From assembly GCF_032854445.1 (NCBI RefSeq), contig NC_088306.1, positions 19,191,764 through 19,255,763 on the forward strand: a DNA stretch of 64,000 nucleotides. Reading direction: 5' to 3'. How positions within the stretch are numbered: position 1 is the first letter of the stretch; every line of letters starts with the position of its first letter. This document shows positions 32,501 to 62,022 of this stretch, piece by piece. A model generated the notes under the pieces. That model saw only the letters and a program-made list of their open reading frames with translations. It ran no database searches and was not told the DNA's origin. The translations under genes were made by a program, and so were the position numbers. Source of the stretch: Liolophura sinensis (taxonomy: Eukaryota; Mollusca; Polyplacophora; Chitonida; Chitonidae).

Positions 32501-35500
32501 TGGTAGGAGTGAAAGTTCTGTGGTAAGGGTGTGAGTTGTGTGGTAAGGGTGTGAGTTATGTGGTAAGGGTGAGAGTTATGTGGTAAGGATTAGAGCTCTG
32601 TGGTATGGGTGAGAGTTCTGTGGTAAGGGTAAGATTTCTATAGTATGGGTGAGATTTCTGTCTTAAGCTTGAGATTTCTGTGGTAAGGGTGAGATTTCTG
32701 TGGTAAGAGTAAGAGTTTTGTGGATAGAGTGATAGTTATGTGGTAAGGGTGAGAGGCCTGTGGTATTGATGAGGATTCTGTTGTAGGAGTGAAAGTTCTG
32801 TGGTAAGGGTGAGAGTTATGTAGTAAGGATTAGAGCTCTGTGGTATGGGTGAGAGTTCTGTGGTAAGGGTGAGATTTCTATAGTATGGGTGAGATTTCTG
32901 TCTTAAGGGTGTTCTGTGGTAAGGGTGAGATTTCTGTGGTAAGGGTGAGAGTTTTGTGGATAGAGTGATAGTTATGTGGTAAGGTGAGAGGCCTGTGGTA
33001 TTGGTGAGGATTCTGTTGTAGGAGTGAAAGTTCTGTGGCAAGGGTGAGAGTTTTGTGGTAAGGAGCTCTGTGGTATTGGTGAGAGTTCTGTGGTAGGAGT
33101 GAAAGTTATGTGGTAAGGATTAGAGCTCTGTGGTATTGGTGAGAGTTCTGTTTTAGGAATGAGACTTCTGTGATGGGGTGAAAGTTCTGTAGAGATGAGA
33201 GTTGTGTGGTATGAGTGAGAAGTCTCACGACTATTTACTTGGACAGCACTGTACCGAAGGGCCCTGCACATGACTTGCACATATCTCGCCTTTTAGCATT
33301 TGTTAGATCCTGCGTGTTGTGTGACGATTTCAATCAACGTCACTAGTTATTACCGCAAAAATTAGTGTGTCAAGGCTATTCTGTCAATCGCCTTCACTTC
33401 AAGTTTCTTAAGGTTTACAATGAGTACAATTATCTTGTAAGTAAATACGGGCCGAGAGTTCAGAATCTTTGGCGTTCTGCTTCATGAGTGTGTCTTATTC
33501 CGCTTAACCCGGAACGAGGGAGTGTACATTCATTGTGTTGGATTAAATCGTTAAATCGTTGGATATATGAAAAGTTGCAATCAAAGTGCAACTGAGATGC
33601 ATAATGACAGCTGATATTCTAGCAATCTAACATGCAGTGGTATTCAGTTTTCTAGTATGAAGAAACTGCAGTGCTTGGAGTAAAACTTATATTAGGCAAG
33701 TTACTGACGAACTTTCAGATGTGTGACGTACAGACTTGCACGTCGTATTGATGGAAGACATAGGCTTCAGTGAGCGTAGATGCAAAAACAGCCACAAAAA
33801 CTTCCCTGACCACTTATTGTCACCACGGCGTAAAAGAACGTTGAGAGAGGGAGGTAATATTGGACATTACGACATTTCCACATGAAGAGAATAAAATACA
33901 ATTGAAGACGTACAGCATAGAGCGTAAAATTCAGAACAGCGACGACAGTGTGATAGCTGACAAATGGTCACACGTATCCGGTGAAATACGCCCTTTTGTC
34001 AGTGTAAGGCATTCAGGGTTTCATTCTAACTTTTCATGCATAAACAGTAGCAAACTACACTCTTTCTGCGCGGTTCACGGCTGGTTTGCGTCAGTGTTAT
34101 TTGCAGTTCTCTGCGGTTCACGGTTGGTTTGGGTCAGTGTTATTTTCATTTCTCTGCGGTTCACGGTTGGTTACGGTCAGTGTTATTTTCAGTTCACTGC
34201 GATTCACGGTTGGTTTGGGTCAGTGTTATTGTAGTTCTCTGCGATTAACGGTTGGTTTGGATCAGTTTTATTTGCAGATCTTTGGGGTTCACGATTGGTT
34301 TGGGTCAGCGTTATTTGTAGCTCTCTATGGTTCACGGCTAGTTTGCGTTAGTGTTATTTGCAGTTCTCTGCGGTTCACGGTTGGTTTGGGTCAGTGTTAT
34401 TTGTAGTTCTCTGCGGTTCACGGCTGGTTTGGTTCAGTGTTATTTGTAGTTCTGTGCGATTAACGGTTGGTTTGGATCAGTTTTATTTGTAGTTCTTTGG
34501 GGTTCACGGTTGGTTTGGGTCAGCGTTATTTGTAGCTCTCTATGGTTCACGGCTAGTTTGCGTTAGTGTTATTTGCAGTTCTCTGCGGTTCACGGTTGGT
34601 TTGGGTCAGTGTTATTTGTAGTTCTCTGCGGTTCACGGCTGGTTTGGTTCAGTGTTATTTGTAGTTCTGTGCGATTAACGGTTGGTTAGGGTCAGTGTTA
34701 TTGTAGTTCTGTGCTATTAACGGTTGCTTTGGATCAGTTTTATTTGTAGTTCTTTGGGGTTCACGGTTGGTTTGGGTCAGTTTTATTTGTAGTTCTTTGG
34801 GGTTCACGGTTGGTTTGGGTCAGCGTTATTTGTAGCTCTCTATGGTTCACGGCTAGTTTGCGTTAGTGTTATTTGCACTTCTCTGCGGTTCACGGTTGGT
34901 TTGGTTCAGTGTTATTTGTAGTTCTGTGCGATTAACGGTTGGTTTGGGTCAGTTTTATTTGTAGTTCTCTGCGGTTCATGACAGGTTTGCAGGAGGATTT
35001 TGTCCTGCCAGAACTATGTCGATGCCAGTATAAAAGACTATTGCATACAGAGAAAAGCTGGAGGGTTTTATTTATTCATTATTTATTCATAACTTTTCAT
35101 ATAAATGCTCAAATACTAGCAACTTACACGCCCTAGCACCCTGGGCGAAGAAGAAACTGGGTAAATAATAATAATCATCATAATCATAATAATAAAGCAA
35201 TAGTTACAAATGCAATTCATAGGACGTCGCTGGTCTAGAATTACTCAAAATACTGTGTTGTTACCACACGTAATGAAACTTTGTAAAGATACCGGACCTT
35301 TCTCAAATGCAGCGGACTGTAGAAGTAACATAGAACGTGACATCTCAACCTTAAGTGCATATAAACACTAAAAACGTGTATAAAGCTCCAGCAAAATCTC
35401 TCCATTGATGTTAAGTTGTTCGACCCAACGAATACGCCATCTAAATATTATCTTTGAATTTTTTCTCCTCTTACCAGGTCAGTTCGGGGTACCTCGATTC

Positions 35501-38500
35501 AGCGTCGCAATATTCTTTGGATTAATCGTGGCCATGTTGAGCTCTGTCATTGACTCCTTAGCTGACTACAAGATCGCAGCTCGTGTGTGTCAGATCCCTA
35601 AAGTTCCCCCACACGGCACCAACCGGGGCCTGTTGATCGAGGGATGCTGTAGCATACTCTCTGGGGCATTTGGTGCAGGCATGGCCACCTCCACAAATAT
35701 CTCAGTCACGGGGTCCTTAGCTATATCAGGTGTAAGGTTATTGTTCTTGTAACCGTAAAATAAACATTCTTGTATTTATACCTTACAGTATTTATGTAAA
35801 CAGCAATCAAATAAATCAATAAATTATACATTTTACGAACTTTATTACTAATGTTAAGCGGTACCACGTGAACCGACGAGGATGATATTTGTGATAGGTA
35901 AATATTTGGACTGCTCTAAAAGCAAGAATTCGATTTGCTTTGCGCTGATTGATTGTTTCTCAAAAATCCCTTTGAATAACCAAAGATTTTAAAAAAAAAA
36001 CATTCCCAAACATATTTATCGGCTTCGGCAGATAACTGGACATGATTATCGAAATAAGGGCGAAATTGATGCCAATTGCCTTTTATTTGCCCTTATTGGG
36101 GATAGTTAGGCGATAATGGGAAAGGCGAGAATAGTTGCCTATCACTTTGTGACAGAGTGCCTTCACTCCCTAACACCCTGTCATTGATTGGTGACATCGC
36201 CATATCGGTTTGCTTCGTAGTCAGGGGAAACTGCGGTGGAACGATAGTACGAAGACGGCCTTATTTATTTATTTATTTATTTATTTTGTTGGTGTTTTAC
36301 GCCGTTATTACGGCTGTCTGCATTATGGTGAGAGGAAACCAAACCCACAACAGTCCGCAGTTTGCTGAAGATCGCCCTATCCCTGTCACATGCCATACTG
36401 CTTTGAAGTGCAATCATAAATTGCTCTAGTAACTGAATGCAATGAAATCCCAAGAGACATTGAATGTCTGTTTTGACGCCTTTCATTTTAAAACCAACAT
36501 ACTTTTAAAATCACGTAGTCCTTTCATAAAGAAGTCACAAAAGCAAGTTCTCCTTAGTTCTGTTACGTACCTTCGAGAGCAAACACACAAGCGTTATATA
36601 GCAGAAATGTATGCATCACAGACTGAGATATCAGTTTCAACACTGTAAATTATCCTTACAGTTGACAATAACAATACACATGTGTAACGATGTGTCGCAT
36701 ACAGTGTGTACCGGTGTGTCGCATATGTATATATCTCGCCTTGTACTATTTGTTACACCCTATGTGCCGTATGGCCATTTCAGTCAACGTCAAGATTTTC
36801 TACTGTTTTTACTGTAAGTTTTCAAACTTTTTGATTCATTCTTTGAGTTTACTAAATTTTACAATAAGTAGGCCTAAGGTTTCCCGTTAAATAATCCCTG
36901 GTATTCTATTTCATAATTATGTGTAATTCCGCTTAGCCCGAGGCTACCCCGGGCATGTAAATTTTTGCCATCACAGTACAACCAGCGTAGAATTTACTCA
37001 ACGATAACATACGAATTAGTATGGTACACAATTTGGACATGGATTTAATTAACTGATCTAGAACTGTCAAGGGGCCTCCGCGGCCGAGGTGGTTAGCAAG
37101 CCAGAGTAGTGCAATGACCCACCAACACGGTCATTGTGAGTTCAACTGCAGCTCATGCTGGCTTCTTCTCCAAACAGACGTGGGAAGCTCTGCCGGTATA
37201 AATGGCATATTCTTGACCACGGCGTAATACTCAAATTATATCAATAAATAAATCAATTAATTAATAAATTAATAAATGAATCATTCTTTGCATGAAGTTT
37301 CTAATTCCAAATCCTGTCTTAATTATTTAGTGATTTGTGTTGAACGTTATTTCAAAAAATTGGCCAAATTAACCCGGAACGCAATACGAATGGAATATGA
37401 GTGTCTGTTTCGACGCGTATAGATTCTCTATTTGGAGAACCTGTCTATCGAATTTGGAACTTTCTTAACCAAGTAATACAAATTCTTGGGCAATTTCAAG
37501 GATTCATTTTTTTGTTTATTTATTTCTTTAATATAAATTTTACGCCGTACTCAATAATATTTCATTTATGCGGCGGCGGCCAGCATTTTGGCAGAGGAAA
37601 CAAGGCAGAAACCATCCGATTATCGACCATCCTAAGGTTACAGACAAACCTTCTCAAATACGACCGCATGTCCATGTACACCGCTAGCACGCTAAACACT
37701 ATGTTACTTCAACCTTCTACATTCTCCGAGGGAAAGTTAGGGGTATACTGCTACATTGTCATATATCTTTATTTCTCTTCTCATTAGGTAACTAGTCGTC
37801 GCGTGTTCCAGGCCGCCGGATTGTTGCTGATGTTCTTAGGAGTCGTTGGGAAAATCGGCGCCGTTCTGGTCATTATCCCCAAGCCCGTCATTGGGGCGGT
37901 ACTGATTGTGATTCTGGGGTCTGTCACTGGGGTCCTTATAGCCGAGTTGAACGATTTTGAGATGAAGAGGCCCCGGAACTGTATGACGATTGGGCTGGCT
38001 ATGCTCTTGGGTTACATGATTCCTAAAATGATCATCGAGTACCACGAAATACTGGACACAGGTTAGCACAAAGCTTCAGAATGAAGGGCAAGTACATACT
38101 TTGAGGAACTGTACGAATTATTTTGAAATCATTACAAACAACATAATTTTTCAGTGCAACCGAGATTATAATTCATCGTTTTTAATCTTTTATTCCTTTA
38201 TCACAGCCTCAATACCGAAAGTTCCTGCATTGGGATCTTTGTAGAATTTGATAGATACCGCGTGTTGTGAGACGATTTCAAAAACTCACAATAAAGTTAT
38301 TACTGCAAACTTTGACGTAATTAGAGTACTTTCATAACTTTCGTAGAATACCGGAAAATACAGGAGGCACGCGTGCCTCCGCTAATTTCATCCGTGGGCC
38401 AAACCTACATGCAGATATCGCTATTTTCAACAGAATGTAGTAAAGCGTATTTATATAGTTTATAGATTCCGACAAGTTTGTAGGAATTACAGAGCTTGGT

Positions 38501-39763
38501 ATTTTCTCGTTACCCTTTTTATTCATCGTCGTCAAATGACTGAAAAATTGTAAAGTACGACGTTAAACCCAAAGCACTCACTCACTCACTCACTTTTTAT
38601 ACATTTATTTTTGTCTCCAGTTTTTGTTGCGGGAAAAAGAGCACACCAGATTCCTAATGTTACAATTGTGTTGTTTCTCCCAGGTATTCCGGAGCTGAAC
38701 AATGTAATCAGAGCCATGTTTGGGACACCGTTGTTTGTAGCCGGTGTTGTGGCTTGCTTTCTAGATAACACTTTGCCAGGTTCGTTTCCACAGTCTTTAA
38801 CCACTCTAAGCTGTAAGTTTTTTTTTTTTCATAATTTGTTTTTTGATGTTTTGTGGTATGCAGGACATAGCCTGATTACTTGGGTGTTGCGTTTTCACGG
38901 TTAATTTCATAGCTAAAAGGGCAAAATTTCCCACATGTGACGCACAGACATGTGCATTATACTTTCAAAAATGAATATTTTAATTCTAACAGTAAGTGTG
39001 TTGTCTGAGTGATGCTAGAATGTATTCTGTTATTACAACACAATATTCTGTCGTAATCAACAGAATAATAGAACATGTGAGTTATGTTTAACAGAACAAT
39101 CATACAGAAAAAACAGAACAATCTGAAGCAATAACAAAATACATTCTAGCATCACAACAGACTTTCTGATCAAATTAACAGAGTAATGGTTCGTATGTAT
39201 TGATAGAAGATAACTGGCATTTAACAAATGTGAGAATGCGTAAACTATAATACAAAGCACGAATCAAAAAGTAAGAAAACTAATGGCAGATTATATCAGT
39301 GGTTGATTTCTGACTTTTTTTTGATTTCTAATGGTGTTGAAACAGTATTCTTTTCCTTTATATTACAACGAATGAAATCTAATGTATAATTTGACCACGC
39401 GGAAAAACACAGGGCTGTGCGAAACAAGATAAAACATAATGACACATGTATAATTTTTTTTCTTAATCTTCATACAAAGGTGAACCGCAAAATATTAATA
39501 TTATATTGATGATTTCTTTATTCATCAAATGCAAATGAAGCCTATTTTCTTTCTAAGGAGGGCGTGGCCAAAAACCGGATCCGGAAGACGATAAAGGGCA
39601 GACTTCCGATGAGACTGCGCCGGCTCACCGCCTACCTTATGTACATGACTATTTTACGAACTGTAAATGGACCCGATTCTGCCCCTTCCTGCCCGGATTT
39701 CAACACAACGTTAAGAAAGACGTGCTTATTTCGGAGCCAACGCAAAAATTGGAATTAGTATGA
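23520..39763 (+). CDS. SLC23-family transporter (nucleobase/ascorbate transporter type), gene 1, 11 exons
   Basis: Predicted multi-pass plasma-membrane transporter of the NAT/SLC23 family, whose members move ascorbate (SVCTs) or nucleobases with Na+ or H+. The spliced CDS is 1791 nt (596 residues; human SVCT1 is about 600): 23520-23678, 24645-24796, 27489-27583, 28469-28563, 28959-29140, 30464-30584, 31697-31853, 35478-35731, 37788-38061, 38684-38779, 39558-39763. All phases join without a stop. Family landmarks: PSIYYVVP region, two sequons (N140-Q-T, N147-G-T) in the loop where human SVCT1 is glycosylated, IGPLTIAP, YMANVLVPIPYW, NRGLLIEG, VTSRRVFQ, FLDNTLPG. Unusual: QH of TM1 is Q53-V54, the ES of TM8 is D346-S, and the P-N-x-G motif is T-N-I-S (393-396). 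Substrate is therefore uncertain. An in-frame ATG at 23484 is an alternative start. Confidence 0.92.
23711..23918 (-). repeat. SINE family 1 copy (intron 1)
   Basis: A TTATTTATTT tail, GCCGTACTCAAGAATATGTC, AGCATTATGGTGGGAGGAAA and GAACTCACAGAGACCGCATT are collinear with the full-length SINE at 51430-51702, with internal deletions. Confidence 0.85.
24645..24796 (+). CDS. SLC23 gene 1, exon 2
   Basis: Acceptor TTCAG|GTCGCA, donor GAG|GTAAGA. It encodes VALQVVSGAVTNSI through FIQAVIGVR (TM1 end to TM2), aligned without gaps to SVCTs. Ends in phase 2. Confidence 0.9.
24828..25047 (-). repeat. SINE family 1 copy with 13-bp target duplication
   Basis: Flanked by TCTGTTCAATTTA at 24815-24827 and 25048-25060. 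It runs from the ATTTATTT tail through the body to GCGACCGCATTGGTGAGAGG; the tRNA-like head beyond that is truncated. Confidence 0.92.
25446..25775 (+). repeat. 330-bp direct repeat, copy A (intron 2)
   Basis: GGATAAATTCTAAGAACATA, AATCAAACTAT, ATGGTCTTTAATCTG, GGTCGAGATCTAAC and the end CGTGTACCATTCTAGTT align collinearly with 27938-28275. Confidence 0.8.
26267..26335 (-). repeat. SINE family 1 3'-end fragment
   Basis: ATTTATTTGATTGATGTTTA and CTCAAGAATATTTCATATAT match the SINE tail end; it faces the fragment at 26390 in inverted orientation. Confidence 0.75.
26390..26515 (+). repeat. SINE family 1 3'-end fragment, (AATA)n tail
   Basis: GGTTTCCTCCCACCATAATG, GAGTACGGCGTAAAACACCA and a long AATAAATA/AATAAT tail. 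Together with 26267-26335 it forms an inverted pair. Confidence 0.85.
26540..27190 (-). mobile_element. LINE 3'-end relic (C-terminus of an RT polyprotein)
   Basis: On the - strand 27180-27060 reads SFVQPYLDYCISVWGNSS, then SDLSRLDASRKRSMRLILG. This is the post-RT segment of CR1/Jockey-like LINE polyproteins (P-Y-x-D-Y-C-x-x-x-W-G ... R-x-x-R-x-I-L). Stops follow soon after, and weaker similarity continues to about 26540. It sits in intron 2 of SLC23 gene 1, in opposite orientation. Confidence 0.75.
27489..27583 (+). CDS. SLC23 gene 1, exon 3
   Basis: Acceptor TTTTCAG|ACTCCC. It encodes LPIFQTPSIYYVVPIIS and RADLPDWAC; donor ATG|GTAATG, phase 1. Reading on would meet a stop within three codons, which supports the donor. 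Confidence 0.88.
27938..28275 (+). repeat. 330-bp direct repeat, copy B (intron 3)
   Basis: GGATAAATTCTAAGAAAATA, ATGGTCTTTCATCTGGCATA, ATGATCGAGATCTAACC and CGTGTACCGTGCTAGTT match copy A about 2.5 kb upstream. The copies flank exon 3. Confidence 0.8.
28469..28563 (+). CDS. SLC23 gene 1, exon 4 (GC donor)
   Basis: Acceptor CTATCCAG|TATCG. It encodes the extracellular loop with sequons NQT and NGT, ending DDIWRGRLLE, the counterpart of the SVCT W-x-x-R-x-x-E-x-Q-G segment. Only a GC donor (GAG|GCAAGT) gives the phase 0 needed by exon 5. Confidence 0.78.
28959..29140 (+). CDS. SLC23 gene 1, exon 5
   Basis: Encodes ICGVLMIVSILHALIGATG, IGPLTIAPAVVVMILK and FIHLGVAV. Acceptor TTGACAG|ATC, donor CT|GTAAGT, phase 2. 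Same length (182) as the gene 2 counterpart. Confidence 0.95.
29860..29990 (-). repeat. diverged SINE variant (TTACTGACG type)
   Basis: ATTATGGGTGGAGGGAAC is followed by GGGCAAGTTACTGACGAAAG and TGTGACGTAAAGATATACAC. Related stretches occur at 33700-33750, 38915-38975 and 52515-52660, suggesting a sister family of the main SINE. Confidence 0.5.
30464..30584 (+). CDS. SLC23 gene 1, exon 6
   Basis: Encodes TLATLLILTTYMAN, VLVPIPYWTRSHGW and FLRTYA. Acceptor ATCACAG|CACTC, donor GCC|GTGAGT, 121 nt. It lacks the minisatellite seen at the equivalent acceptor of gene 2. Confidence 0.95.
30836..31490. mobile_element. possible TTAA-flanked element (intron 6)
   Basis: The left end reads TTAA then AGGGACATATTGC. 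The right end, read in reverse, is TTAA then AAGGGGCACATTGC. The imperfect inverted ends, TTAA flanks and length of about 655 bp resemble the clearer element at 57130-57798. No transposase is readable. Confidence 0.4.
31697..31853 (+). CDS. SLC23 gene 1, exon 7
   Basis: Encodes VLISIALGWLLCHILTVTG, YNARTDNKGDTVELAKW and FYFPYPG. Acceptor CTTCAG|GTA, donor CAG|GTAAAT, 157 nt, phase 1. Confidence 0.95.
31948..32075 (-). repeat. SINE family 1 fragment, diverged
   Basis: The tail, GATTGGTGTTTTACGCCCTA, CTCAAGAAACTTTCACTTAT, GGGAAACCGACGACCACCCG and CAGGTTGAG follow SINE order. Confidence 0.8.
32283..33215. repeat. minisatellite, ~20-bp units (intron 7)
   Basis: About 45 imperfect copies of GTGAGAGTTCTGTGGTAAGG. 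The units are strongly strand-asymmetric (G and T on the + strand). Higher-order repetition is visible: the block starting near 32440 recurs near 32730 and 32960. Open frames through it are artefacts of the repeat. Confidence 0.93.
34072..34980. repeat. minisatellite, 43-bp units (intron 7)
   Basis: About 21 copies of a 43-bp unit (GGTTCACGGTTGGTTTGGGT, CAGTGTTATTTGTAGTTCTC). Variants (TTTGGGGTTCACGG; GCGATTAACGG) recur in blocks of several units, showing higher-order amplification. 43 is not a multiple of three, so the apparent proteins are frame-cycling artefacts. Confidence 0.94.
35478..35731 (+). CDS. SLC23 gene 1, exon 8
   Basis: Encodes QFGVPRFSVAIFFGL, SSVIDSLADYKIAARV, HGTNRGLLIEG and ATSTNISVTGSLAISG. 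This holds the TM8 carboxylate and the family signature region. The donor GGT|GTAAGG is preferred over GTGTAA because exon 9 must enter in phase 0. 254 nt. Confidence 0.95.
36261..36350 (-). repeat. SINE family 1 fragment (intron 8)
   Basis: A TTATTTATTT tail, TTGGTGTTTTACGCCGT, and CTGCATTATGGTGAGAGGAA with an internal deletion. Confidence 0.8.
37071..37280 (+). repeat. SINE family 1 variant with tRNA-like head (intron 8)
   Basis: GGCCTCCGCGGCCGAGGTGG, then TTAGCAAGCCAGAGTAGTG, begins with a box-A-like segment. GTGAGTTCAACTGCAGCTCA is the box B region. It ends GGCGTAATAC, then AATAAATAAATCAATTAATT. Most of the body between is deleted. Confidence 0.8.
37517..37640 (-). repeat. SINE family 1 fragment
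   Basis: TTTATTTATTTCTTTAATAT, TTTTACGCCGTACTCAATAA, GGCGGCGGCCAGCATTTTGG and CATCCGATTATCGACCATCC. It lies 148 bp before exon 9. Confidence 0.8.
37788..38061 (+). CDS. SLC23 gene 1, exon 9
   Basis: Encodes VTSRRVFQAAGLLLMFLG, IIPKPVIGAVLI and FEMKRPRNCMTIG, through EYHEILDTG. Acceptor CATTAG|GTAACT, donor ACAG|GTTAGC, 274 nt, phase 1. Confidence 0.95.
38525..38597 (+). repeat. SINE family 2 3'-end with (CACT)n tail (intron 9)
   Basis: GTCGTCAAATGACTGAAAAA, TACGACGTTAAACCCAAAGC, then ACTCACTCACTCACTCAC: the reverse complement of the start of the repeats at 5004 and 43631. Confidence 0.85.
38684..38779 (+). CDS. SLC23 gene 1, exon 10
   Basis: Encodes IPELNNVIRAMFGTPLFVAG, then VVACFLDNTLPG. 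Acceptor TCCCAG|GTATT, donor CCAG|GTTCGT, 96 nt. Confidence 0.94.
39003..39166. repeat. hairpin MITE-like inverted repeat (intron 10)
   Basis: GTGATGCTAGAATGTATTCT, then GTTATTA, near 39012-39037 pairs with AATAACAAAATACATTCTAG, then CATCAC, near 39132-39157. The loop of about 95 bp is rich in AACAGAA. No coding capacity. Confidence 0.75.
39558..39763 (+). CDS. SLC23 gene 1, exon 11 (C-terminus)
   Basis: Acceptor TTCTAAG|GAGGG. The phase-correct frame reads GRGQKPDPEDDKGQTSDE, LPYVHDYF, KWTRFCPFLPGF and stops at TGA 39761-39763. The YxxDY...RFxPFLP pattern matches SLC23 C-terminal tails. The longer open frame starting at 39564 is out of phase. Confidence 0.88.
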
Positions 39764-41289: not shown

Positions 41290-42720
41290 ATTTCCTCATA
41301 CAAAATTTGCATATGTTAAATAAGGGTATAATCAGGAAATAGTATAATATAAGAATTTTTGCTGAGTAAACATTTCAAGTGACTTTAGAAGCCTGTGTTT
41401 CTGGATATTTTTTGCAGATGTGCGTTATATGAGACACCCATGTAAGCTTATTAATAAAGACAATTCCAAGGAATTTACATTCTGAAATAGAGATAATTTC
41501 ACTGTTGTTTAATGAAATGGGGGGAGAGTGGGGTGCATTTGTGTGTCTAAAAACTGATAGGTTTTATTAGCATGTACTTAGTTTTGGCGATATTAAGTGA
41601 TAGGCGGTTGGCTGGAAGCCACAGTTGAACGTTAGTTAATTCCATTTCCATTATGTTTATTGCAATACTTAGAAGAGGTATAGAAAACCAGTATCGTCGG
41701 CAAGTCAGATAAATTTTATTAAACTAGCTGCAGCTATCATGTCATTAACGTAGATCAAATATAGTAAGGGGCCCAAAACAGAGTCTTGGGGACGCCGTGC
41801 GAGAGTGATTTAAAACATGATAAAACATCATCATAGTATACAAATTGATAACGATTAGTTAAATAACTATCAAGCCATTTATTGCATATTCCACGGAATC
41901 CATGATGCTTCAGCTTGTCGAGTAGGATGTTGTGATTTACGGTGTCGAATGCCTTCGACAGGTCACGTTACTTTGCTAAATTCTTTGATTTTTTTTTTAT
42001 TTGGCAGTAACAAGCCTGTCATGGGGATCACGTGTAATGTAGAATGATTTGATCAAATCCGATACTGATGATGAGTTATAGTGTTGTTACTTTCAAGAAA
42101 GTCCGTGATCCTATCTGCTGTGACTTTTTCAAAAATTTTACTGACACTAGGCAGAACCGAAACTGGCCGACAACTTTCCATTTGTTTGCAATTTCCTGAC
42201 TTGTAAACTGGGGTAAATTTGGCTATTTTAACAAATTAGGATACTGGCCAGTTAGCATTGACAAATTAATAATATGCTCTAGTGGATCAACAATAGCGTT
42301 CGAAGCTATTTTCAATACAGACATCGGAATGCCATCTATTCCCGGAGAAGATGATTTACAGTTAAATATAACCGAGGCGACCATTTATATAGACACTGGG
42401 TCAAAACACTGGGAATTCGTTAGTGATTGGCTCAGTGAGATACTCATGAAAAGAAGTGTAGGCAGAGGGTATATTATTCTCGAGGTTGGAAGCTACGGAT
42501 GTAAAATTGTTATTAAAATTGTCAGCAATAGACTGCTTATCGCATGTGTCCATGTTATTTATTTCGAATACGCCAGGAAGCGATTTTCTGCGTTTTTCAC
42601 CAAGCAGTTGGTTAAGTACTTTCTATGCTTCTTGAATATCACTGTGAACTTCGTTGAATTTGTTTTCGAAGTATGTTTTCCTTGATAGGCGAATAAGATT
42701 GTTAAAGTGAAGGAAAGCAC
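41290..42720 (-). mobile_element. LINE relic: reverse transcriptase of a CR1/Jockey-like element
   Basis: Reading the - strand from 42720 downward, broken frames give a pre-RT linker (NNNFTSVASNLENNIPSAY), KSSSPGIDGIPMSVLKIA, FTPVYKSGNCKQMESCRPVS, then SVSKIFEKV, DLSKAFDTVNHNILLDKLK, GFRGICNKWLDSYLTNRYQF, SHGVPKT (GVPQGS equivalent), and WLPANRLSLNIAKTKYM. The order is that of a full RT domain, and the FADDT block near 41700 reads LADDT. Numerous stops and frameshifts make it non-functional. It differs from the Tx1/L1-like family on the left. Confidence 0.85.
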
Positions 42721-47250: not shown

Positions 47251-47534
47251 TTGATTGGTGTTTTACGCCATACTCAAGAATACTTCGCTTATACGACGGC
47301 GGCCAGCATTATGATGGGAGGAAACCGAAAACGTGTCAGTGCAGCTCACCAGACACGCCATACTCAAGAATACTTCGCTTATACGACGGCGGCCAGCATT
47401 ATGATGGGAGGAAACCGAAAACGTGTCAGTGCAGCTCACCAGATACGCCATACTCAAGAATACTTCGCTTATACGACGGCGGCCAGCATTATGATGGGAG
47501 GAAACCGAAAACGTGTCAGTGCAGCTCACCAGAT
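47251..47534 (-). repeat. 90-bp tandem triplication of a SINE family 1 segment
   Basis: After TTGATTGGTGTTTTACGCCA the block ACGCCATACTCAAGAATACT (through GTGTCAGTGCAGCTCACCAG) repeats at 47265, 47355 and 47445, exactly 90 bp apart. The copies are almost identical (only the base before each junction varies). Because 90 is a multiple of three, long open frames arise on both strands; they are not genes. Confidence 0.95.
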
Positions 47535-52199: not shown

Positions 52200-52363
52200 C
52201 TATTTGCTTTCTATGCGACGAAATCCCGGTAAGATGGGACAGAACCGAGTCCATTTCCGGCTGAATAAATAGTCATGTACGTAAGGTAGGCGATGTACCG
52301 GTGCTCTCTCACCGGAAGTCGCGGGCTCACCGTCTTCCGAATCCGGTTTTTGGCCACGCCCAC
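52200..52363 (-). CDS. SLC23 gene 2, last exon
   Basis: Encodes GRGQKPDSEDGEPATSGE, HRLPYVHDYLFSRKW and RFCPILPGFRRIESK, then TAG. Acceptor TGTACAG|GTGGG. It is collinear with gene 1 exon 11 but 14 codons shorter at the end. Confidence 0.93.
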
Positions 52364-55300
52364 CTGTACAGGAAATAGGTATTGATATTACTTTCAGAAG
52401 AGATTATTATTTTGCACTGATCAGCAATAAAGAGGTTTTCTTATCACTATGCGAGAATTCAAATCTAAACTTTGCAGACATAGTTTTCACTTACTTTCTT
52501 TCTTGGCGCTCTTGTTTAGCGCCACACTCAAGTATTGTTCACTTATACGAATTGCGGTTAGTCTTACGGGTGGAGGAAACCAGACTGTCTGATGTAATCC
52601 ACCGACTTTGGCTGCTTACTGACGTGCAGTTATACACAACATATTGGTGGAAGACGAGCGGCCTCTTCAACGATCGTAACACTTCGCAAAAGTCCACGTC
52701 AGCAAATCTCACCACGGACCAACAAGCAGTAACAGCGAGGGGATCTACACATTCTCAGTTCAAGGTCGGTGTAGATTTAATCGCCTATCCTTTTGTTTGA
52801 TGGTAAAAATCTTCAAAGTGACCGCTCTAACTTTAAATTTAAGTTCTATTCATTTTTGCATTCAGTCTTATTTATTACTCGATTTTTTCATTCAATATAT
52901 GCTACATTAATTACAGTGTCATTATTTTCCTGCACTGATCATTATATTCAATACCTGGCAGCGTGTTGTCAAGAAAACAAGCCAGAACGCCAGCAACAAA
53001 AAGGGGAGTTCCAAACATGGCGTAGAGGACGTTATTAAGCTGTGTAATACCTTTAAGAGAAAAGAAGATATCGTCAGTTTTCCTTTGCACATAAGGTAAG
53101 CCATAGGCTTATAACGTGTAACATTCATAGTAATATATACATCATTCTAGTTTTTGAGGAGACTCCCAAGTGATCCCTGGCTGTGGGGATTCCTTGATAA
53201 AGAAATAAAGAATGAAATTAAATTAATCATTCTAGTTTAATGCATATGTATGATTATTTCTCTATTTAATTATTTGATTGGTGTTTTACGCCGTACTCAA
53301 GAATATTTCATTCATACGATGGCGGCCAGTATTATGGTTGGAGGAAACCAGGCAGAGCCCGGGAGAAACCCACGACCATCCGCAGTTAAGTTTAGCTTGA
53401 AAATTTTCATAACAATTTTTCAGTCATATGACGACGAAGGAGTCCTTAGTGTGCATGTAATGTGCCTCTTTTTTGCAGGACGAATTTCCACCGCTCTTTT
53501 ATCTAGTACTGCTTCAATGAGACGACTTACCGAAGGCAAGTCAGCCACCCCACCCGATTCTACCGATACGGGTCAACCAGTCGTTGCATTATCACTTTAA
53601 TGCTGAACACCAAGCGAGGAAGTTACAACTTCCTCCTTTAAGGTGTTAGATGTGACCCGACCCAGGGCTGACCCTGGATCCACCACCTCCCGAAGCATGG
53701 TAATAAAGTTTGAACAACTACCTAAAGGATATAGATCTATGTAACACAACCAGATGATCTTATGAGAAAAATTATCAACCTGGATTTTAATACGATGTTA
53801 AGAATTATACCCCACTTCCACGAAACAAGAACAATCTGTACTCCAAAGAGTAAAAGGTATATATTCTGTCATCAAACTGAGTATATGCACACGCTGTGCA
53901 GTTAGAATAATATAGTTTAATAATAGCCAATTTATGCCGTAAAATTGGTATAATAATCGTAAAAAGAGCATTACACGCTGTTCAGTTCGAATACTAGGCG
54001 TAAAAATAGGAATACAGAATAATTTATTTATTTACTTAATTGATTTTTGTTTTACGCCATACTCAAGAATACTTCACTTATACGAAGGTGGTGAGCATTA
54101 TGGTGGGAGGAAACTGGACAGGGTCCGGGACCCTGCAGTTAGAATAATAAGCGTACAAATAGGAATAACAAGCCTACAAGGAACGGTCTAAGTTGTGCCA
54201 TATAGAGCAAAGTACGCGTACACGGAGGTCAAGATATGATTTTTTTTAAAGCAATCAAAACAAATTAAAACCGTCGACATCATATCACCTGTGTCAAGGA
54301 CGTCTTGGTTGTTCAACACAAGTTTTGGTACCATAGTTCCCATGATGATTGACAGACCGACCGTCATACAGTTTCGGGGCCTCTTCATGTCAAACTCGTT
54401 GAGTTCCGCTAGTAGTACTCCCGAGACGGAACCCAGGATAATTAGCATAACTCCGCCCACCACCGGTTTCGGAATGATTACAAGGAATGCACCTATTTTC
54501 CCGACAATTCCAAGGAACATCAGAAAGAGGCCGGCAAATTGAAACACCCTCCTGCTAGTAACCTGTTCAAAACATGAATATTTAAATCGGTATAAATATG
54601 CCAAGCAGATTCAGCCACTCATCTTGCCGACATTTCGAGAAGCATGTATTATTAGTTAAACGGTTACTCAGTGATAGGACACGCAAATATCTGGTGTCAA
54701 CAATCCTCATATTGGGCGAGACGTCATACATTTGCGTATCCTATCACTGATTAATCACGTAACGAATTCATCCCAGCGCAGAAGACCGATATATAGGTGA
54801 ATCGCTTCAGCGATGTGACCACTCTACTCACAACACATCAAAGGGAGATAACCGATTCAGCAGACACATTTGACGTCGTCTGCAGGATTCGAAAAAGTAT
54901 TTGTACCCCACGTGATCGTTGTTGTCCAATGAAAAGTGGAGTATTTTATCTGATGAGGGATAAATTTTTATACTTGTGGCCCTCGCTGTCTCGCTTGACT
55001 CGGGAAAACATGAAAAAACCCAAACTTCATTATTCGAGAACTCTTTTTCCAACTAACAAAAAGATTAGTAGCGTTTAAGGCAAGTTTAATTTCCAACGAT
55101 CCGTAATGTTTGATCCCAAGAACAAGACAAGGACCATTATTATAGGCATTCAATTTGACATTGTCAGCTTCAGATATTCCCACTTTCTAAAAACAGTCAA
55201 TTCACCAAGCACTGTGTACTAGTGATGACAATGGCCACTTATCATGCTAGATATATCTATTTTTAAACAGTCCATAATTCAATCATTCCATCAACTTTAC

Positions 55301-58300
55301 AAATGAAATGATAACTCTTAACACTAAAGTGTTCTGTTCAACACTATAAAGATCACCTGGAGTGACTGCACTTATAAGAGTTCTCTGACCACCTTTATAA
55401 AGTGTTAATGTTTTAATACTCGTCAAAATGTTAACTTTCCAACTCCATTAAGAGCTGGCTAATCAACATCTTAAACCTACACCTGAAACAAAAATTCTAA
55501 CACTTCTAATGGAGTTGGAATATGAACACCTTTGAAGAGTGCTGAAACATGAACACTTCAAGTGCAGTCACTCCTCGTGATCTTTACAGTGTAAATTGTA
55601 ACACTTAAACTTTAAGAGGGTAAGTCTTACATCATTAACCTAAATTTTAACACTCGCTTGATTATAATTCATGCTGATTTCGTCTGGCCTGAGAACACAA
55701 AACTTTCCCTAGATGTAAGTGGAAATTTTGAGAAAGCCGGTGAAAGGTCTATTAGGATGATGATGGGCGTCTCCCTGGCGGATTTATAGGGAACATCGGT
55801 CATACTGCTTAGACCCAGGTTCTTGACCCATGAGGTCGCATACTCGAATACAGAATTGGGCGGTTTCCCGGGTACCCGGTGTGGAGAGGAAAAACACTGT
55901 TTTCAACTTTTGACTGGTTTCCTCCACTAATATTTATTTATTTATTTGATTGTTGTTTTACGCCGTACTCAAAAATGTTTCATTTATGCGACGGCGGCCA
56001 GCATTATGGTGGGAGAAAACCGGGCAGAGCCGGGGGGATACCCACGACCATTCGCAGGATGATGGCAGGCCTTCTCACGTACGGCCGGAGAGGAAGCCAG
56101 CATGAGCTGGAATTGAACACACAGCGACCTCATTGGTGAGAGGGTCCTGGATCATCATGCTGCGATAGCGGGCTAACCAACTGAGCCATGGATTCCCCCA
56201 CCCCTCAGGGCACTAAAAAGGTTTACTGCCATTGTGTAGAGAAAGATTCTTGACTAAGTATACGGCGCTAAACCCCAGCCTAATAGTAAATAGCCGATGG
56301 CCGTGAGTTCCCCCGGGCTGTGCTCTGTTTCCTCCTACCATAATGCCGGCCGCCGTCGTTTAAGTGAAACATTCTTGAGTACGGCGTAAAACATCAATCA
56401 AATAACTAAATATTAACAGATAAATGCATAAATAATCAAAAGACAAGTTACTGTGAAGTCTGGGACATTCTCACTGGAGCTTACCCCTGTAATGGCTAAG
56501 GCTCCAGTAACCGATATATTGGTGGAGGTCGCCAGACCAGCTCCAAAAGCGCCTGACAAGATGCTGCAAAACCCTTCAATCAGCAGCCCCCTGTTGGTGG
56601 CGTGTGCGGGGGGTCGCGGGATACGGCACACTCGGCTCACAATGTTGTAATCTGCCAATGAGTCGATCACAGAACTAAGCATTCCAACAAGCAGGCCAAA
56701 GAAGAGGGCCAAGCTTAGGCGGGGAGAGCCAAATTGACCTGAAATATATGAATAAAATGTCCGATGTCTAGTCAAAAGCTGTATCAAGAGTAAGAAGTGT
56801 GGTATGTAATCTGCAACAACAACAAAACCACAACAACAATAACGATTTCTTCGTACAGAGTTGTTCGTCGCAGGCAAAAATTGTGTTAAGGTTTATTCTG
56901 TCATGCATAGAACAGGATATAATTAAATAACGTGCCAGAGGATTACAATGTTAACAATCTAAAATGACACAGAAATGACCAGTTCAGCTTTATGCTGGCA
57001 TACGTGAGCCTACAGGGCATGGCTTGACAGCATATAGCGAGTTAAAACACAGACATAAACAATCCAATTTAATCTGATAACTGATCATGTAACACATTAA
57101 CTGTCATTTAAACGAATCAATGACTTTAAAGGAATACTGTCAAGAAAATAAATTATTTGTGCTCCCAAACTGTTTAAAAAGATCATATTGATAGTATTTG
57201 GGCCCCTGTAACCACAAACAGCCTGCTTGTAGTCGTTCTGATGCAACCGGCGACGAATACCGCTCGGCTGAATATGCATATAGTGCCAGCAAATCGGAAA
57301 ATAGCAAGGAATTAACTGAGATAAAATGTAGTCACCAGGTCAAATTGTCGGTCCGAAAATCTTCTGGTTTCTGACAGCTGTCGACGTGGTCAGACTCGCT
57401 GTCGGATGAGTGAGGGGAACGGTTTACTGGGCTGAATTCATGGGTTCCACGCGCTGAATCCGTTCGTATAGGATCATACATGTACGGGTCTATAGGTGGT
57501 ATACACATTGGAATTTCTAGTATGTCCGTTTCACAGTCTGACATTATTTTATTTTGGTATTTTCGCGCCTAAGATCGTATGTGGTATGTGAAACAGTGTT
57601 GTTCAGTATGGGCCCGTTCTTACGGTGACGTCACTGGGATCACGTGACGGGCACCTCATTAACTCCACTCTGGCTGACGGCTCCCTAGCGTGGGAAGCGA
57701 GTCCAGGGGTAAACAAACATCCAGGTTCGTTATAATGAGGGATTATGAGGTAATTATTAAATAAATACCGATGATCATAAGACCTTGACAGTATTCCTTT
57801 AATTCTTGAAGTGGTGGATTAAATGTGGTGGATATTTTCAACAAACACAAATATTTACGTATTTGATTGTTGTATTACGCCCTACTGAATGAATGAATGA
57901 ATGATTATGGCTTAACGCCACATCGGCAATATTTCAGCCATATCGTGGCGACGCCCTACTGAAGAATAGCCTATTTCACTTATACGACGGCAGCCAGCAT
58001 TATGGTTGGAGGAAACCGGGCAGAACCCAAGGAGGAAACGACTATCTGTAGATTTCTGTTCACAAACTATCTCGAGAAGGGGCGTAGATGTCATAACACT
58101 CACCTGGGTAAGGAAAATAGAACCACTTTGCCAACTCCACGGTGTCTCCCTTGTTATCTGTCCGGGCGTGGTACTGTATGTTGTCCGGGGTGTCCGGCAA
58201 TGCTCCGGTCACGGTCAAGATGTGACAGAGAAGCCAGCCAAAAGCAATGCTGATAAGAACCTGAATAGATAAAACTGGGCAAATTACACACGAGTCTAAC

Positions 58301-61300
58301 ACAGCCCATGACCAAGGATCACGAAGGCTCCTTCGCCTTATGTCAGATGTAGTTTTTGACTTCAAAATGGTTATGTGTCATCCAAAAATATGTTTTTGTA
58401 TATGCTTTTTAAAGTGAGTAGATTAAAAAGTTGATTGTTAAAAAAAATAATGATTTTTCCAGTGTTTTTGTCAACTTTAACGTCACGAGTAGACATATAG
58501 CCAACAGTGGCGGCCAACGACAGGCGTGTCAAAAAACTATATGGAAAAGCATAAGAGTGACAGGAATGTGTTATGCGATGGTAGAAAAAAGACCATAGAA
58601 AGATAGAGATTTGAATTAAACTAAATTTTCTTTGTCTTTGAAGGCAGTATTTCAAACCCCCAGCTCCGTGTCATCAGCTAAACTGCCATGTTTATATCTG
58701 GCTGTCTCAAACAATGCCTCATATACGTCACTAAAACAGTTCTTCATGTTCGTACTATTCTTACATTTCTGGTATGAATGTGTGTAGTTACGTCCGTTAT
58801 TACTGAATTTGTCATTGTTGCAGTGACTTCTATGTATATACATTGAATTTTTTCTTTGGTGTTGAGAGCTCTGAAATAATACCACATGTTAAAACTAAGT
58901 CAGACTTTGAGACAACTTTGTGATTCTGGCCCCGTTTGTTCAAAATTGGTTACAGATTTAATACCCGATTTAACTTTAAGCCAAGTCTTCAGTTTTGTAC
59001 TTAGCTTAAAATAAATTGCGTACCAGTATATTAAATATGAACTAAAACTGCGGCTGTTATACTTTGACTTTGGAAATCTGCATTGGCTGCTGAGACTGGC
59101 TAAAATTTTAAATGTAAAATATGACTTGATACCAGCATTAGCTAATACACTTTCGCACAAATGGACACTGGACACCCATTTATCAAACGTCTCGAGACTT
59201 TAATAAGTCAAAAATTCAAACACAGCTACAAATAAAATGCTCTGCTCAAGAAAGTTCAAAATTTGTACACTGATTCTTTGTTGCAGATAAATGTACTAAC
59301 CACAATTTGAGTTTTCCTGTTCTGAGTTTGGCCTTCTGACTTGCAATTTATGACTTACCGGTATATCTTATGTTGCTTGATAAATGCTGGCCCTATTGTC
59401 CTGCAGCCCAGTCTACAAAGCGCACGCAAATTTGCACAAGCGTAACTGTCATGATAATACGTACTGAATGATGTGTTACCATGACAATTTGTTTCTGAAG
59501 CAAAGTTGTTCAACCTTTGTAGAACGGAGCCCAGTTGATTCTTTAGTCTAGAAAGTATGTATCAGCTTCTGTTTCCATGTCAGGACATGCACCTAAGGTG
59601 GTCTAGCCAAATTGGACTCTTCCAAATAAAGGCTGGGTAGTTTATGGTGGATAGGTTATGGTAGTAGTCTGCTTCATTCAAATGAACAATTCTCACGTAG
59701 TTGTCAAAACAGATACTGTAATAAATGTAAAGATCATTTTAAGTCAAATCAACTCCAATAGAAAAGTACGGATATTTGAAAACAGTCTCGTTAGTCGAAA
59801 CCGTGGCCTAATGTCTTTACATTGAAAATCAAACACTTCCACCATCTGGACTGGGTGTGGTATGTTTATGTGTCTAGAAATAAATGCCTGGTCGTTTTTG
59901 CAAGGATTATTTAAAAATATATCAAACTATTAACACTTTGGTGAGATTCATGTTTCATTATTCAAAACAAAGGTTTTTATATTTGGCCGTCAATTGACTC
60001 TTAATTTTTATAATGCTGAGATGATGTCTAAGTAGTACTAAGTGCTTTAAGCCTGATTCTTCATTGTTATCTCACGTGAAATGTGTCACATCCACATTAC
60101 AACTTTGTTTCACAATGGAATAAATTTAACATTGACTGAAAGATATAGTAGGCTTTGGGAATCTCGTTTGACTTAAGAGTGATTCAGTTTTAAAAAAATT
60201 ATATTTTCTATTTCTCCCGACCCCGTAAACTTGACTACTGCGTGTCCTAAACGCAAATCATTCGGTTGTACAACGTTATTAAATAATCAAATAAATAAGT
60301 CGAGCTGAAGTTGTTTCTGAAGCCAAACAAAATGCATAACATGTTCCACGTCTACAACACGTCCACAGTGGATTCCTTTTTATCCTAACAGATTTTTGGT
60401 CGCTGGCTGAAGTTTGTTTCTTTTCTGACAATAGATTTTGTAAAAAAAGGGTTGATTGGACAATTTATAACAACAATCCAATAACATTATAATATTTCTT
60501 AACACTTATCAAAGATCAGTTCTTGATTTTTGGTTAGCTGTGGGGCAGTTGATTCCTATTGCTAGTTGTATTCCTGTATATTGATGTTCAGGACATGCAG
60601 GACACAAGAACACTGATACAACTGGACCGTCTTCTGGTGTCGATTTGCTGATGTCCTACATCGATTATCAGTCCTCTAGAAAAATCAGTGTACGCATCGC
60701 TAATGACTATGCTCCAAAGCTAATTGCACAAATTAAAGTCCAAATTCAGCATCGAATTGTACACAGTTGTGAATTAGCCATTGGTTTACTGTTAGATGGC
60801 TATCCATAAGGGAGAGAACTCACGGCATATGTTCTGAGGAATCTTGTCCGGGTAATTCTCCAACCCTGACCCCTTGACCAGTAGGGGATCGGAGCCAAGA
60901 TGTTTGCCATATACGTGGTAAGGATGATAAGAACACACATAGTGCTGGAATGAAGAACAGACATAGTGCTAGAATGAAGAACAAACATAATGATGGAATG
61001 AAGAACAAACAAACAGTGCTAGGATGAAGACACATATAGGGTTGATATGAAGATACACATGATCTAATGAAGAACAGACATACATTGCCGGAATGATGAA
61101 CACACATAGTTCTAGAATGAAGAACGCACGTAGTGCTGGAATGGCGAATACACATGGTGCTGGAATGAAGGACGCATATATATTCCTGGAATGAAGAACA
61201 CCGATATAGATCTAATGAAGAACAAATACATATTGCTGGAACGATGAACAAACATAGTGCTATAATGAAGAACACGCATAGTGCTTGAATGAAGAACGCA

Positions 61301-62022
61301 CATAGGCCTAAATATTGCTGGAGTGAAGAACACCGATACAGATGTAATGAAGAACAGACACACATTGCTGGAATGATGAACACAGATAGTGCATAATGCT
61401 GGGATGAAAAATATTTGAGCTGGAGTACACTAACGTCATTGTTGGTAGGGAGAGACAAGGCTGAGAAAGAAAACAAAAAATTCAGGATTTCACGGAAAGT
61501 CGGGAGCCTTAAAGAAACAGAGCCAACCCCTGAACAAACCTAACACTAGATAACTTGTTCAACTGGGATAATGGTGTATTTTCAGCAGCGAAATGGAAAT
61601 TTGCTTTACGTTTCATTAGTATAAGCACTGAGAAGACTGTCTCATCACCCCAGTGATTAAATTGCAAGCATCGTCAAGAGATATTTTGTACTCTGATAAA
61701 GCGAAACCATCAAACATACCGGCTCCTGTTAGTCATGAGTTCGAATTTCACTCGAGCCACTAGTCTCACTGGCATCAATTTATCATTGCAGGAAATCTTA
61801 TCTCACAAATAACTTTTTTCATTCATGACTATGGACTTACAAGAATGTCACCCCAAGATGGATGAGAGTGAACTTAATGAGGGTGTCCACTATCTTCAGT
61901 ATCATCACGACAACCGCTGGAACCACGGTGAGGGGTCCGATCACCCTGGCAACGTGCCCACCGATACCCGTGGCTCCGATCAGAGCGTGAATGACTGACA
62001 CCAACATCAGGACGCCCGAGAT
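52200..62022 (-). CDS. SLC23-family transporter, gene 2 (partial; 3' seven exons in window)
   Basis: Paralog of gene 1 on the opposite strand, converging on it. Exons on the - strand: 62022-61841, 60944-60824, 58260-58104, 56738-56485, 54562-54289, 53050-52955, 52363-52200, giving 1248 nt in one frame (415 residues to a TAG stop). The first six exon lengths and all phases equal gene 1. Landmarks: IGPLTVVP, YMANILAPIPYW, SSVIDSLADY, NRGLLIEG, ATSTNISVTGALAITG, VTSRRVFQ, FLDNTLPG. It shares the D-for-E and TNIS changes of gene 1. The 5' exons for TM1-TM3 were not found up to 64000, so they probably lie outside; a 5'-truncated pseudogene is possible but no disabling change is seen in the exons present. 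Confidence 0.9.
52514..52660 (-). repeat. diverged SINE variant near the end of gene 2
   Basis: GCCACACTCAAGTATTGTTC, ACTTATACGAATTGCGG and GGGTGGAGGAAACCAGAC, followed by CTTACTGACGTGCAGTTATA. It shares the TTACTGACG extension with 29860-29990. Confidence 0.65.
52955..53050 (-). CDS. SLC23 gene 2, exon equivalent to gene 1 exon 10
   Basis: Encodes ITQLNNVLYAMFGTPLFVAG, then VLACFLDNTLPG. Acceptor CTTAAAG|GTATT, donor CCAG|GTATTG, 96 nt. Confidence 0.94.
53263..53385 (-). repeat. SINE family 1 3' half
   Basis: GATTGGTGTTTTACGCCGTA, GGCGGCCAGTATTATGGTTG and CCACGACCATCCGCAG. It abuts a family 2 SINE. Confidence 0.9.
53411..53696 (-). repeat. SINE family 2 copy
   Basis: AACAATTTTTCAGTCATATG, GACGAATTTCCACCGCTCTT, ACGGGTCAACCAGTCGTTGC and CAGGGCTGACCCTGGATCCA are collinear with 43631-43972. 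The very end of the tRNA-like head is missing. Confidence 0.88.
54021..54140 (-). repeat. SINE family 1 3' half
   Basis: ATTTATTTACTTAATTGATT, TTTTACGCCATACTCAAGAA and GAGCATTATGGTGGGAGGAA. Confidence 0.88.
54289..54562 (-). CDS. SLC23 gene 2, exon equivalent to gene 1 exon 9
   Basis: Encodes VTSRRVFQFAGLFLMFLG, IIPKPVVGGVML and FDMKRPRNCMTVG, ending NNQDVLDTG. Acceptor GAACAG|GTTACT, donor ACAG|GTGATA, 274 nt. Confidence 0.95.
55318..55612. mobile_element. fold-back MITE with ~120-bp inverted repeats (gene 2 intron)
   Basis: The left arm has AAAGATCACCTGGAGTGACT, GCACTT and CCAACTCCATTA. The right arm, read in reverse, has AAAGATCACGAGGAGTGACT, GCACTT and CCAACTCCATTA in the same order. 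A short AT-rich centre separates the arms. AGTGTT motifs recur in both. No coding sequence. Confidence 0.85.
55930..56197 (-). repeat. SINE family 1, full length
   Basis: From the ATTTATTTATTTGATTGTTG tail to GGCTAACCAACTGAGCCATG of the tRNA-like head. Faces the + strand fragment at 56293-56409. Confidence 0.93.
56293..56409 (+). repeat. SINE family 1 3' half
   Basis: GATGGCCGTGAGTTCCCCCG, CCTACCATAATGCCGGCCGC and GAGTACGGCGTAAAACATCA. It forms an inverted pair with 55930-56197, ending about 75 bp from the exon at 56485. Confidence 0.9.
56485..56738 (-). CDS. SLC23 gene 2, exon equivalent to gene 1 exon 8
   Basis: Encodes QFGSPRLSLALFFGL, SSVIDSLADYNIVSRV, HATNRGLLIEG and ATSTNISVTGALAITG. 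Acceptor ATTTCAG|GTC, donor GGG|GTAAGC, 254 nt. Confidence 0.95.
57130..57798. mobile_element. TTAA-flanked DNA transposon with perfect 15-bp inverted ends (gene 2 intron)
   Basis: Ends AGGAATACTGTCAAG (57130-57144) and CTTGACAGTATTCCT (57784-57798) are perfect inverted repeats, flanked on both sides by TTAA (57126-57129, 57799-57802). TTAA target duplications are typical of piggyBac and Kolobok elements. The 669-bp element is too short for a transposase. It contains an ATG-started 70-codon frame on the - strand. Confidence 0.85.
57332..57544 (-). pseudogene. 70-codon frame inside the TTAA element
   Basis: MSDCETDILEIPMCIPPIDP, PYMYDPIRTD and SDSESDHVDSC, then a stop. The acidic, Ser/Asp-rich N-terminus with Y-M-Y-D-P recalls the start of 'P2X7-like' zinc-domain proteins often carried by invertebrate mobile elements, but no zinc-binding cysteines follow. 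Probably a truncated remnant of the full-length element's gene. Confidence 0.4.
57851..58052 (-). repeat. SINE family 1 copy split by a third SINE type
   Basis: ATTTGATTGTTGTATTACGC and CCTACT are interrupted at 57887-57950, then GCCCTACTGAAGAATAG, ACGACGGCAGCCAGCATTAT and GGTTGGAGGAAACCGGGCAG continue. It ends about 50 bp from the exon at 58104. Confidence 0.85.
57887..57950. repeat. short SINE-like insert with (GAAT)n end
   Basis: GAATGAATGAATGAATGATT, ATGGCTTAACGCCACATCGG and CAATATTTCAGCCATATCGT, bounded by the duplication ACGCCCTACTGAA (57877-57889 and 57951-57963). It is the tail end of a family different from SINE families 1 and 2. Confidence 0.82.
58104..58260 (-). CDS. SLC23 gene 2, exon equivalent to gene 1 exon 7
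   Basis: Encodes VLISIAFGWLLCHILTVTG, YHARTDNKGDTVELAKW and FYFPYPG. Acceptor TATTCAG|GTT, donor CAG|GTGAGT, 157 nt. Confidence 0.95.
58265..60820. other. gene 2 intron, mostly unrecognised
   Basis: AT-rich intron between the exons at 60824 and 58260. No gene or repeat that I can support, apart from a weak match of 58880-58930 (CACATGTTAAAACTAAGTCA) to 23131-23185. Confidence 0.4.
60824..60944 (-). CDS. SLC23 gene 2, exon equivalent to gene 1 exon 6
   Basis: Encodes TMCVLIILTTYMAN, ILAPIPYWSRGQGW and FLRTYA. Acceptor CATTCCAG|CACTATG, donor GCC|GTGAGT, 121 nt. The first 16 bases and the acceptor are one unit of the minisatellite that extends into the intron; gene 1 has TLATLL where this exon has TMCVLI. 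Confidence 0.9.
60929..61425 (-). repeat. ~24-bp minisatellite carrying the exon's 3' splice site
   Basis: On the - strand the unit is CACTATGTGTGTTCTTCATT, then CCAG. About 20 imperfect copies run from inside the exon (60929-60944) up into the intron. At least a dozen keep an AG after a pyrimidine-rich TTCTTCATTC. The unit nearest the exon supplies the splice acceptor and the first 16 exon bases. Long open frames across the array (including one of 218 codons) are a by-product of the period of three. Confidence 0.93.
61841..62022 (-). CDS. SLC23 gene 2, exon equivalent to gene 1 exon 5
   Basis: Encodes ISGVLMLVSVIHALIGATG and IGPLTVVPAVVVMILK, ending FIHLGV-type sequence (LIHLGVTF). Acceptor CTCGGCAG|ATC, donor TTCTT|GTAAGT, 182 nt. 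Confidence 0.94.

Follow-up and report, generated by a model that had tools for sequence, protein, structure and literature searches.

The window analysed here, that is a stretch of 64,000 nt of Liolophura sinensis DNA taken at its full length, carries a convergent pair of paralogous genes of the SLC23 / Xan_ur_permease family, with gene 1 on the forward and gene 2 on the reverse strand. Gene 1 exons were mapped to 28959-29140, 30464-30584, 31697-31853, 35478-35731, 37788-38061 and 38684-38779 (+), and an additional match was obtained at 39557-39703 (+). Seven exons of gene 2 lie within the window (all on the minus strand): a coding exon at 61841-62022, followed by a GTAAGT donor from 61840; the coding exon 60824-60944, which starts with CACTATGTGTGTTCTT (TMCVLIILTTYM...); and downstream thereof the exons 58104-58260, 56485-56738, 54289-54562, 52955-53050 and 52200-52363, the last of which contains the stop codon. 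Pairwise comparison of the first six exons revealed equal lengths in both genes (182, 121, 157, 254, 274 and 96 nt), and the coding DNAs are 72% identical over 1084 nt. When joined, the seven gene 2 exons yield 415 open codons followed by a stop, and the domain search assigned 188 bits to gene 2 and 173 bits to gene 1 for Pfam PF00860 (cut-off 27). Since its exons join into an open frame up to the stop and its Pfam score is far above the cut-off, gene 2 looks intact over its mapped exons and does not resemble a pseudogene. Judged from its sequence, the host gene is of the SLC23 transporter type, to which ascorbate or nucleobase transport may be ascribed by similarity only.

A search of 283 kb around the window with the gene 2 protein returned genes 1 and 2 only at E <= 1e-3, and a DNA search with 60824-62022 retrieved the locus itself and gene 1 among the matches listed. 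Two more exon matches upstream of gene 2 were found outside the window, and both are weak (E 0.002 and 0.007).

A 24-bp array crosses a 3' splice site of gene 2

The intron separating the first two gene 2 exons of the window ends in a clear minisatellite with a period of ~24 bp (60929-61391, minus strand), which comprises 18 intronic units (61391-60945) and one unit that crosses the acceptor (60944-60929). Within every unit, 16 nt equivalent to the exon start are followed by 8 nt equivalent to the intron end. TRF gave a score of 290 to an array at 60929-61305, with a period of 24, 15.6 copies and 69% matches, and wrap-around alignment to the unit CACTATGTGTGTTCTTCATTCCAG covered 61475-60908. 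The outermost part of this alignment (61392-61475, minus strand) is a decayed, weakly alignable edge consisting of four rows with 13-16/24 matching positions; these rows as well as two exon rows were left out of all unit counts, for which the 18 rows from 61391 to 60945 were kept. The interval 60929-61425 reached a wrap-around score of 540, whereas 60 dinucleotide shuffles averaged 39 and did not exceed 62. TRF and the comparison with shuffles thus bear out the preliminary description of a ~24-bp array extending about 0.5 kb into the intron, with the units being clear only from 61391 on. Its further statement that the acceptor and the first 16 exon bases form one unit of the array is likewise confirmed: the junction reads ATTCCAG/CACTATG at 60945/60944, and the exon, which starts with CACTATGTGTGTT, is identical in its first 16 nt to the consensus of the remaining 18 units (16/16 positions), while the best of these units reaches 15/16. 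Also as described, the paralogous exon of gene 1 (30464-30584, +; 121 nt, phase equal to that of the gene 2 exon) is free of such an array and reads TLATLL. Single units are identical to the consensus at just 16-23 of 24 positions, and the diverged array is therefore probably old. A block duplication is visible within it (61367-61236 versus 61235-61088, 108/146 aligned columns identical). No further copy of the unit was detected elsewhere in the window when up to five mismatches were allowed in ungapped comparisons using four rotations.

The main 3' splice site is assigned to the AG at 60945-60946 (minus strand), with 60944 as the first exon base; acceptors are designated by their first exon base below. 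Splicing at this position provides an exon whose length and phase are shared with the paralogue, and the resulting protein aligns gap-free over 361 residues to SVCT1 (chain 8jew_A, residues 157-517; 238.6 bits), a chain which we take to be human SVCT1. Of the first 362 residues of the 415-codon assembly, all from residue 2 onwards are aligned to SVCT1 with no gap. Owing to the six exon pairs of equal length and the gap-free SVCT1 alignment, 60944 is a well supported acceptor as far as sequence comparison can tell.

Only one upstream AG preserves the reading frame

To the 5' side of 60944, 18 AGs are found from 61460 to 60968, and each was translated together with the rest of the gene. The frame is kept in one case only, namely 60968 (AG at 60969-60970, minus strand), and the remaining 17 lead to a premature stop. 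A shift of the acceptor to 60968 indeed adds 24 nt, corresponding to TMSVLHSS, and the exon frame upstream of 60944 is open for 25 codons, i.e. about three units, up to a stop at 61021, both as previously claimed; an in-frame acceptor is present at the first step only. The AG expected before the unit at 60992 is replaced by ATC, and the next AG (61018) would add 74 nt and is out of frame. Consequently, the idea of several tandem in-frame acceptors had to be abandoned, and stepwise lengthening of the protein by octapeptides is unavailable in the present sequence, as the second upstream unit lacks an AG, and every further AG is either out of frame or followed by a stop. A functional cassette of alternative acceptors, for which several frame-keeping sites would be expected, was rejected on the same grounds (1/18 observed).

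Many units do retain an AG in register, as had been noted, that is 13 out of 18 (0.72), and on average the 23 dinucleotides within the unit are retained equally often (0.72). Conservation of the acceptor dinucleotide above the remainder of the unit can accordingly be dismissed. As the AG is retained no better than the average dinucleotide, there is no sign of selection keeping acceptors in the array, and AG retention looks neutral, as under drift.

Acceptor strength and candidate branch points

Scoring of 39 intron AGs with an approximate 3' splice site matrix assigned 9.1 to 60944 and 7.5 to 60968. On this rough scale, 60944 ranks third, behind 61460 (11.9) and 61185 (10.2), and the 13 acceptors defined by homology in the two genes, 60944 included, range from 6.0 to 12.7. 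The fact that two intron AGs outscore 60944 indicates that strength alone does not decide acceptor choice. The top-scoring acceptor-like AG of the intron by this approximate matrix (61461-61462, minus strand; TTTTTTGTTTTCTTTCTCAG) would lead to a stop if used. Lying at the array's outer edge, it may represent either an outer unit that has decayed or a tract unrelated to the repeat. We also considered 61460 as the ancestral acceptor and rejected this possibility: the site entails an early stop, and the sequence following it is unlike the exon start of gene 1.

Between 61480 and 60930, 18 matches to the branch-point motif yUnAy (TTCAT/TTCAC) are present; of these, 14 precede the next AG by 4-9 nt, and 11 are separated from an AG by 29-33 nt. 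Two TTCAT adenosines are candidate branch points for the sites in question, that is 60975 (minus strand), which is 6 nt away from the 60968 AG and 30 nt away from the 60944 AG, and 60999 (minus strand), which is 30 nt away from the 60968 AG. In human introns, splicing is described as normally using the first AG that follows the branch point, and AGs less than 12-15 nt from the branch point can be bypassed (PMC1431707). Following this rule, 60944 would be selected from a branch at 60975, and 60968 from a branch at 60999. Branch-point prediction, which had been suggested as a check on the array, thus gives a divided answer: the candidate 60975 fits the use of 60944, whereas the candidate 60999 fits 60968, so that geometry leaves room for the latter site. 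The conserved exon length and protein would favour the branch at 60975 over that at 60999.

A minisatellite probably seeded by an intron-exon junction

We regard it as likely that the array is a minisatellite seeded by the junction itself, in which the copy at the exon edge is the working site 60944 and all other copies are passive neutral relics. In this scenario, a short piece of DNA comprising the intron end plus 16 nt of the adjoining exon start would have been duplicated in tandem, and the repeat would have grown, partly in blocks of several units, into an intronic minisatellite. The exon-edge copy would have stayed under coding constraint and would still serve as the 3' splice site, while the remaining copies would drift neutrally. 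In most units, a TTCAT resembling a branch point precedes the unit's own AG by a few nt, and often the AG of the next unit by ~30 nt. Hence, a branch point at 60975 may be so near to the 60968 AG that this AG is skipped, leaving the 60944 AG to be used. Occasional use of 60968 would produce an in-frame form with eight additional residues in TM5, and use of any other of the 17 AGs would result in a premature stop.

As to the origin, the identity of the 16 exon bases to the array consensus fits an exon junction that served as seed and was held by coding constraint. However, the match concerns a single unit, and by our own estimate a full 16-nt match to the consensus would arise by chance in ~6% of units (mean column identity 0.84). 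Growth outward from the exon should, however, leave the youngest units nearest to it, and distance from the exon and identity to it are uncorrelated (Spearman 0.05, p=0.85); such directional growth was therefore rejected, and the missing gradient counts against the junction-seeded origin. Extension of the repeat into the exon past base 16 was discarded as well, as the resemblance to the unit found there is equalled by 302/1000 shuffles and by 266/823 windows of the other gene 2 exons. The opposite direction, that is an intronic minisatellite which spread by conversion across the acceptor and overwrote the start of the exon, is in our opinion unlikely. The exon start is indeed closer to the array units (11-15/16 identical) than to gene 1 (9/16), and such overwriting had been deduced in the preliminary description. 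However, the excess of divergence from gene 1 at the exon start is not significant (7/16 differences versus 26/105 in the exon remainder, Fisher p=0.13; 8/17 versus 25/104, p=0.07, when 17 bases are taken), which leaves this deduction without statistical backing, and an exon that equals the consensus exactly is what would be expected of a seed. Across the aligned coding sequences, 76/1069 windows of 16 nt have at least eight differences between the two genes. It appears highly improbable that an ordinary intronic minisatellite touches the acceptor with its end by accident. Admittedly, arrays are abundant in the window: merging 19 TRF rows by hand gave 12 distinct arrays, one of which covers one of the 26 exon edges considered, and upon random placement of the 12 arrays at least one of them covers some exon edge in 60% of trials. 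Overlap of array and edge alone is therefore a weak argument, but an exon edge falls within an end unit of the 24-bp array with a probability of just 0.02. The stronger argument against chance is the run of the unit in register into 16/16 exon bases, the AG of the acceptor being the AG of the unit itself.

With regard to splicing, the main competitor of a single working site is a pair of alternative acceptors, in which both 60944 and 60968 are used and the two resulting proteins are distinguished by the presence of TMSVLHSS in TM5. We consider this possible, albeit not probable. Both AGs are preceded by good tracts according to the approximate matrix (9.1 and 7.5), TTCAT is found 30 nt upstream of each, and the frame remains intact with 60968. 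The insertion is not penalised by Pfam PF00860, which scores the form with eight extra residues even slightly higher (189.4 versus 188 bits). On the other hand, the acceptor CAG is normally favoured over TAG, and the 60968 form requires an 8-residue gap in the alignment to SVCT1 and loses 10 bits (228.7 versus 238.6 bits for the 60944 form). Moreover, in a gap-free alignment the junction falls at residue 223 of chain 7ytw_A, presumably mouse SVCT1, which is ten residues past residue 213, an arginine by our own count. Arg213 of mouse SVCT1 is reported to reside in TM5, a gate-domain helix involved in the dimer interface (PMC10011568), and an insertion of eight residues including the polar HSS at about this position would probably harm the helix. 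Less probable still is a leak that depends on copy number, in which additional acceptors divert splicing towards nonsense-mediated decay and the array thereby lowers or tunes transporter output. Premature stops would indeed follow from 17 of the 18 upstream AGs, several of which score like real acceptors on the approximate matrix, and the array is richer in YAG than its single-base shuffles (42/2000 reach the density of the array). However, this enrichment follows from the copying of one acceptor unit, retention of the AG looks neutral, and regular splicing is reportedly undisturbed by comparable repeats in amphioxus (PMC3087553, PMC3902484). We give very little credence to the combination of these ideas, namely an acceptor bank with leaky splicing, in which 60968 adds the octapeptide to TM5, the other AGs feed decay and the repeat number sets the balance, so that output or form of the transporter varies between individuals.

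Relation to known repeats at splice sites

In amphioxus, the name 'mirages' has been given to tandem minisatellite-like duplications of intron-exon boundaries, which were described in Adh3 and in the globin genes BflGb6 and BflGb9 (PMC3087553, PMC3902484), as well as in PGBD5 and, as cited there, troponin C (PMC3902484). According to these reports, they do not disturb regular splicing, and the authors of the globin study proposed them as a source of new introns (PMC3087553, PMC3902484). Like the chiton array, they are built from tandem units across an intron-exon boundary, the AG or GT being retained in many of these units but not in every one (PMC3087553, PMC3902484); the units of the Adh3 mirage measure 10-72 bp (PMC3087553), as compared to ~24 bp in the chiton. 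The chiton array fits this kind of repeat on three structural features: its unit holds the intron end and the exon start (8 + 16 nt), the splice dinucleotide is kept by many, though not all, units (13/18), and an intact protein is encoded with an ordinary junction (415 open codons). It differs from the amphioxus examples as described (PMC3087553, PMC3902484) in that it belongs to another animal group and another gene, consists of ~18 short diverged units and is known from the DNA of one haplotype. The constant use of one site by the spliceosome, which the preliminary description had kept as a fallback, is the better-supported reading as compared to tandem in-frame acceptors, and it is in line with the splicing reported for the amphioxus mirages.

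Repeats of this sort are also found in human genes. Internal tandem repeats at exon-intron boundaries, with a mean unit of 30 bp, were reported to be capable of creating alternative splicing (PMC2812944). They share with the chiton array that minisatellites extend across boundaries, but they are described as variable, occur in recent primate paralogues and have RNA support (PMC2812944), whereas the chiton array is diverged and known from DNA. A 31-bp VNTR in human CBS, designated c.1444_1467+7(16_21), is polymorphic with 16-21 copies (PMC2630376). Its unit likewise holds a splice site and, by its name, coding and first intron bases; it is located at the donor side, has 31-bp units and is of known polymorphism (PMC2630376), in contrast to the acceptor-side array of the chiton. 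Finally, the sites 60944 and 60968 resemble NAGNAG acceptors (PMC3250501), which are neighbouring and in frame and add whole codons, but are spaced by three bases rather than by the 24 nt of a minisatellite. Among the open-licence papers listed by our literature searches, we recognised no mollusc case of repeats that span a splice site. Taken together, minisatellites spanning splice sites are already known from amphioxus and human, and the chiton example extends the kind named in amphioxus and appears to have arisen passively, as a by-product of tandem duplication. With its many near-copies in tandem, the array provides a natural test of the way in which the spliceosome chooses a single AG, and if its length varied between animals, it would offer a clean system to study effects of repeat number on splicing.

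Other repeats and minor observations in the window

Two large minisatellites were detected by TRF in the gene 1 intron between 31853 and 35478, namely 32286-33220 (20 bp x 47.5) and 34070-34978 (43 bp x 21.2), neither of which lies over any of the 26 exon edges considered. At 47264-47534, TRF identified three copies of a 90-bp unit with 98% matches, which is a piece of an interspersed repeat present at several other sites of the window; a literature search for words of this repeat yielded no paper. Open stretches at 41755-42235 (minus strand) resemble fragments of a LINE reverse transcriptase. The donor that follows the 274-nt exon of gene 2 is GTGATA (54288-54283, minus strand) and thus weak as compared to the usual consensus, and its counterpart in gene 1 reads GTTAGC.
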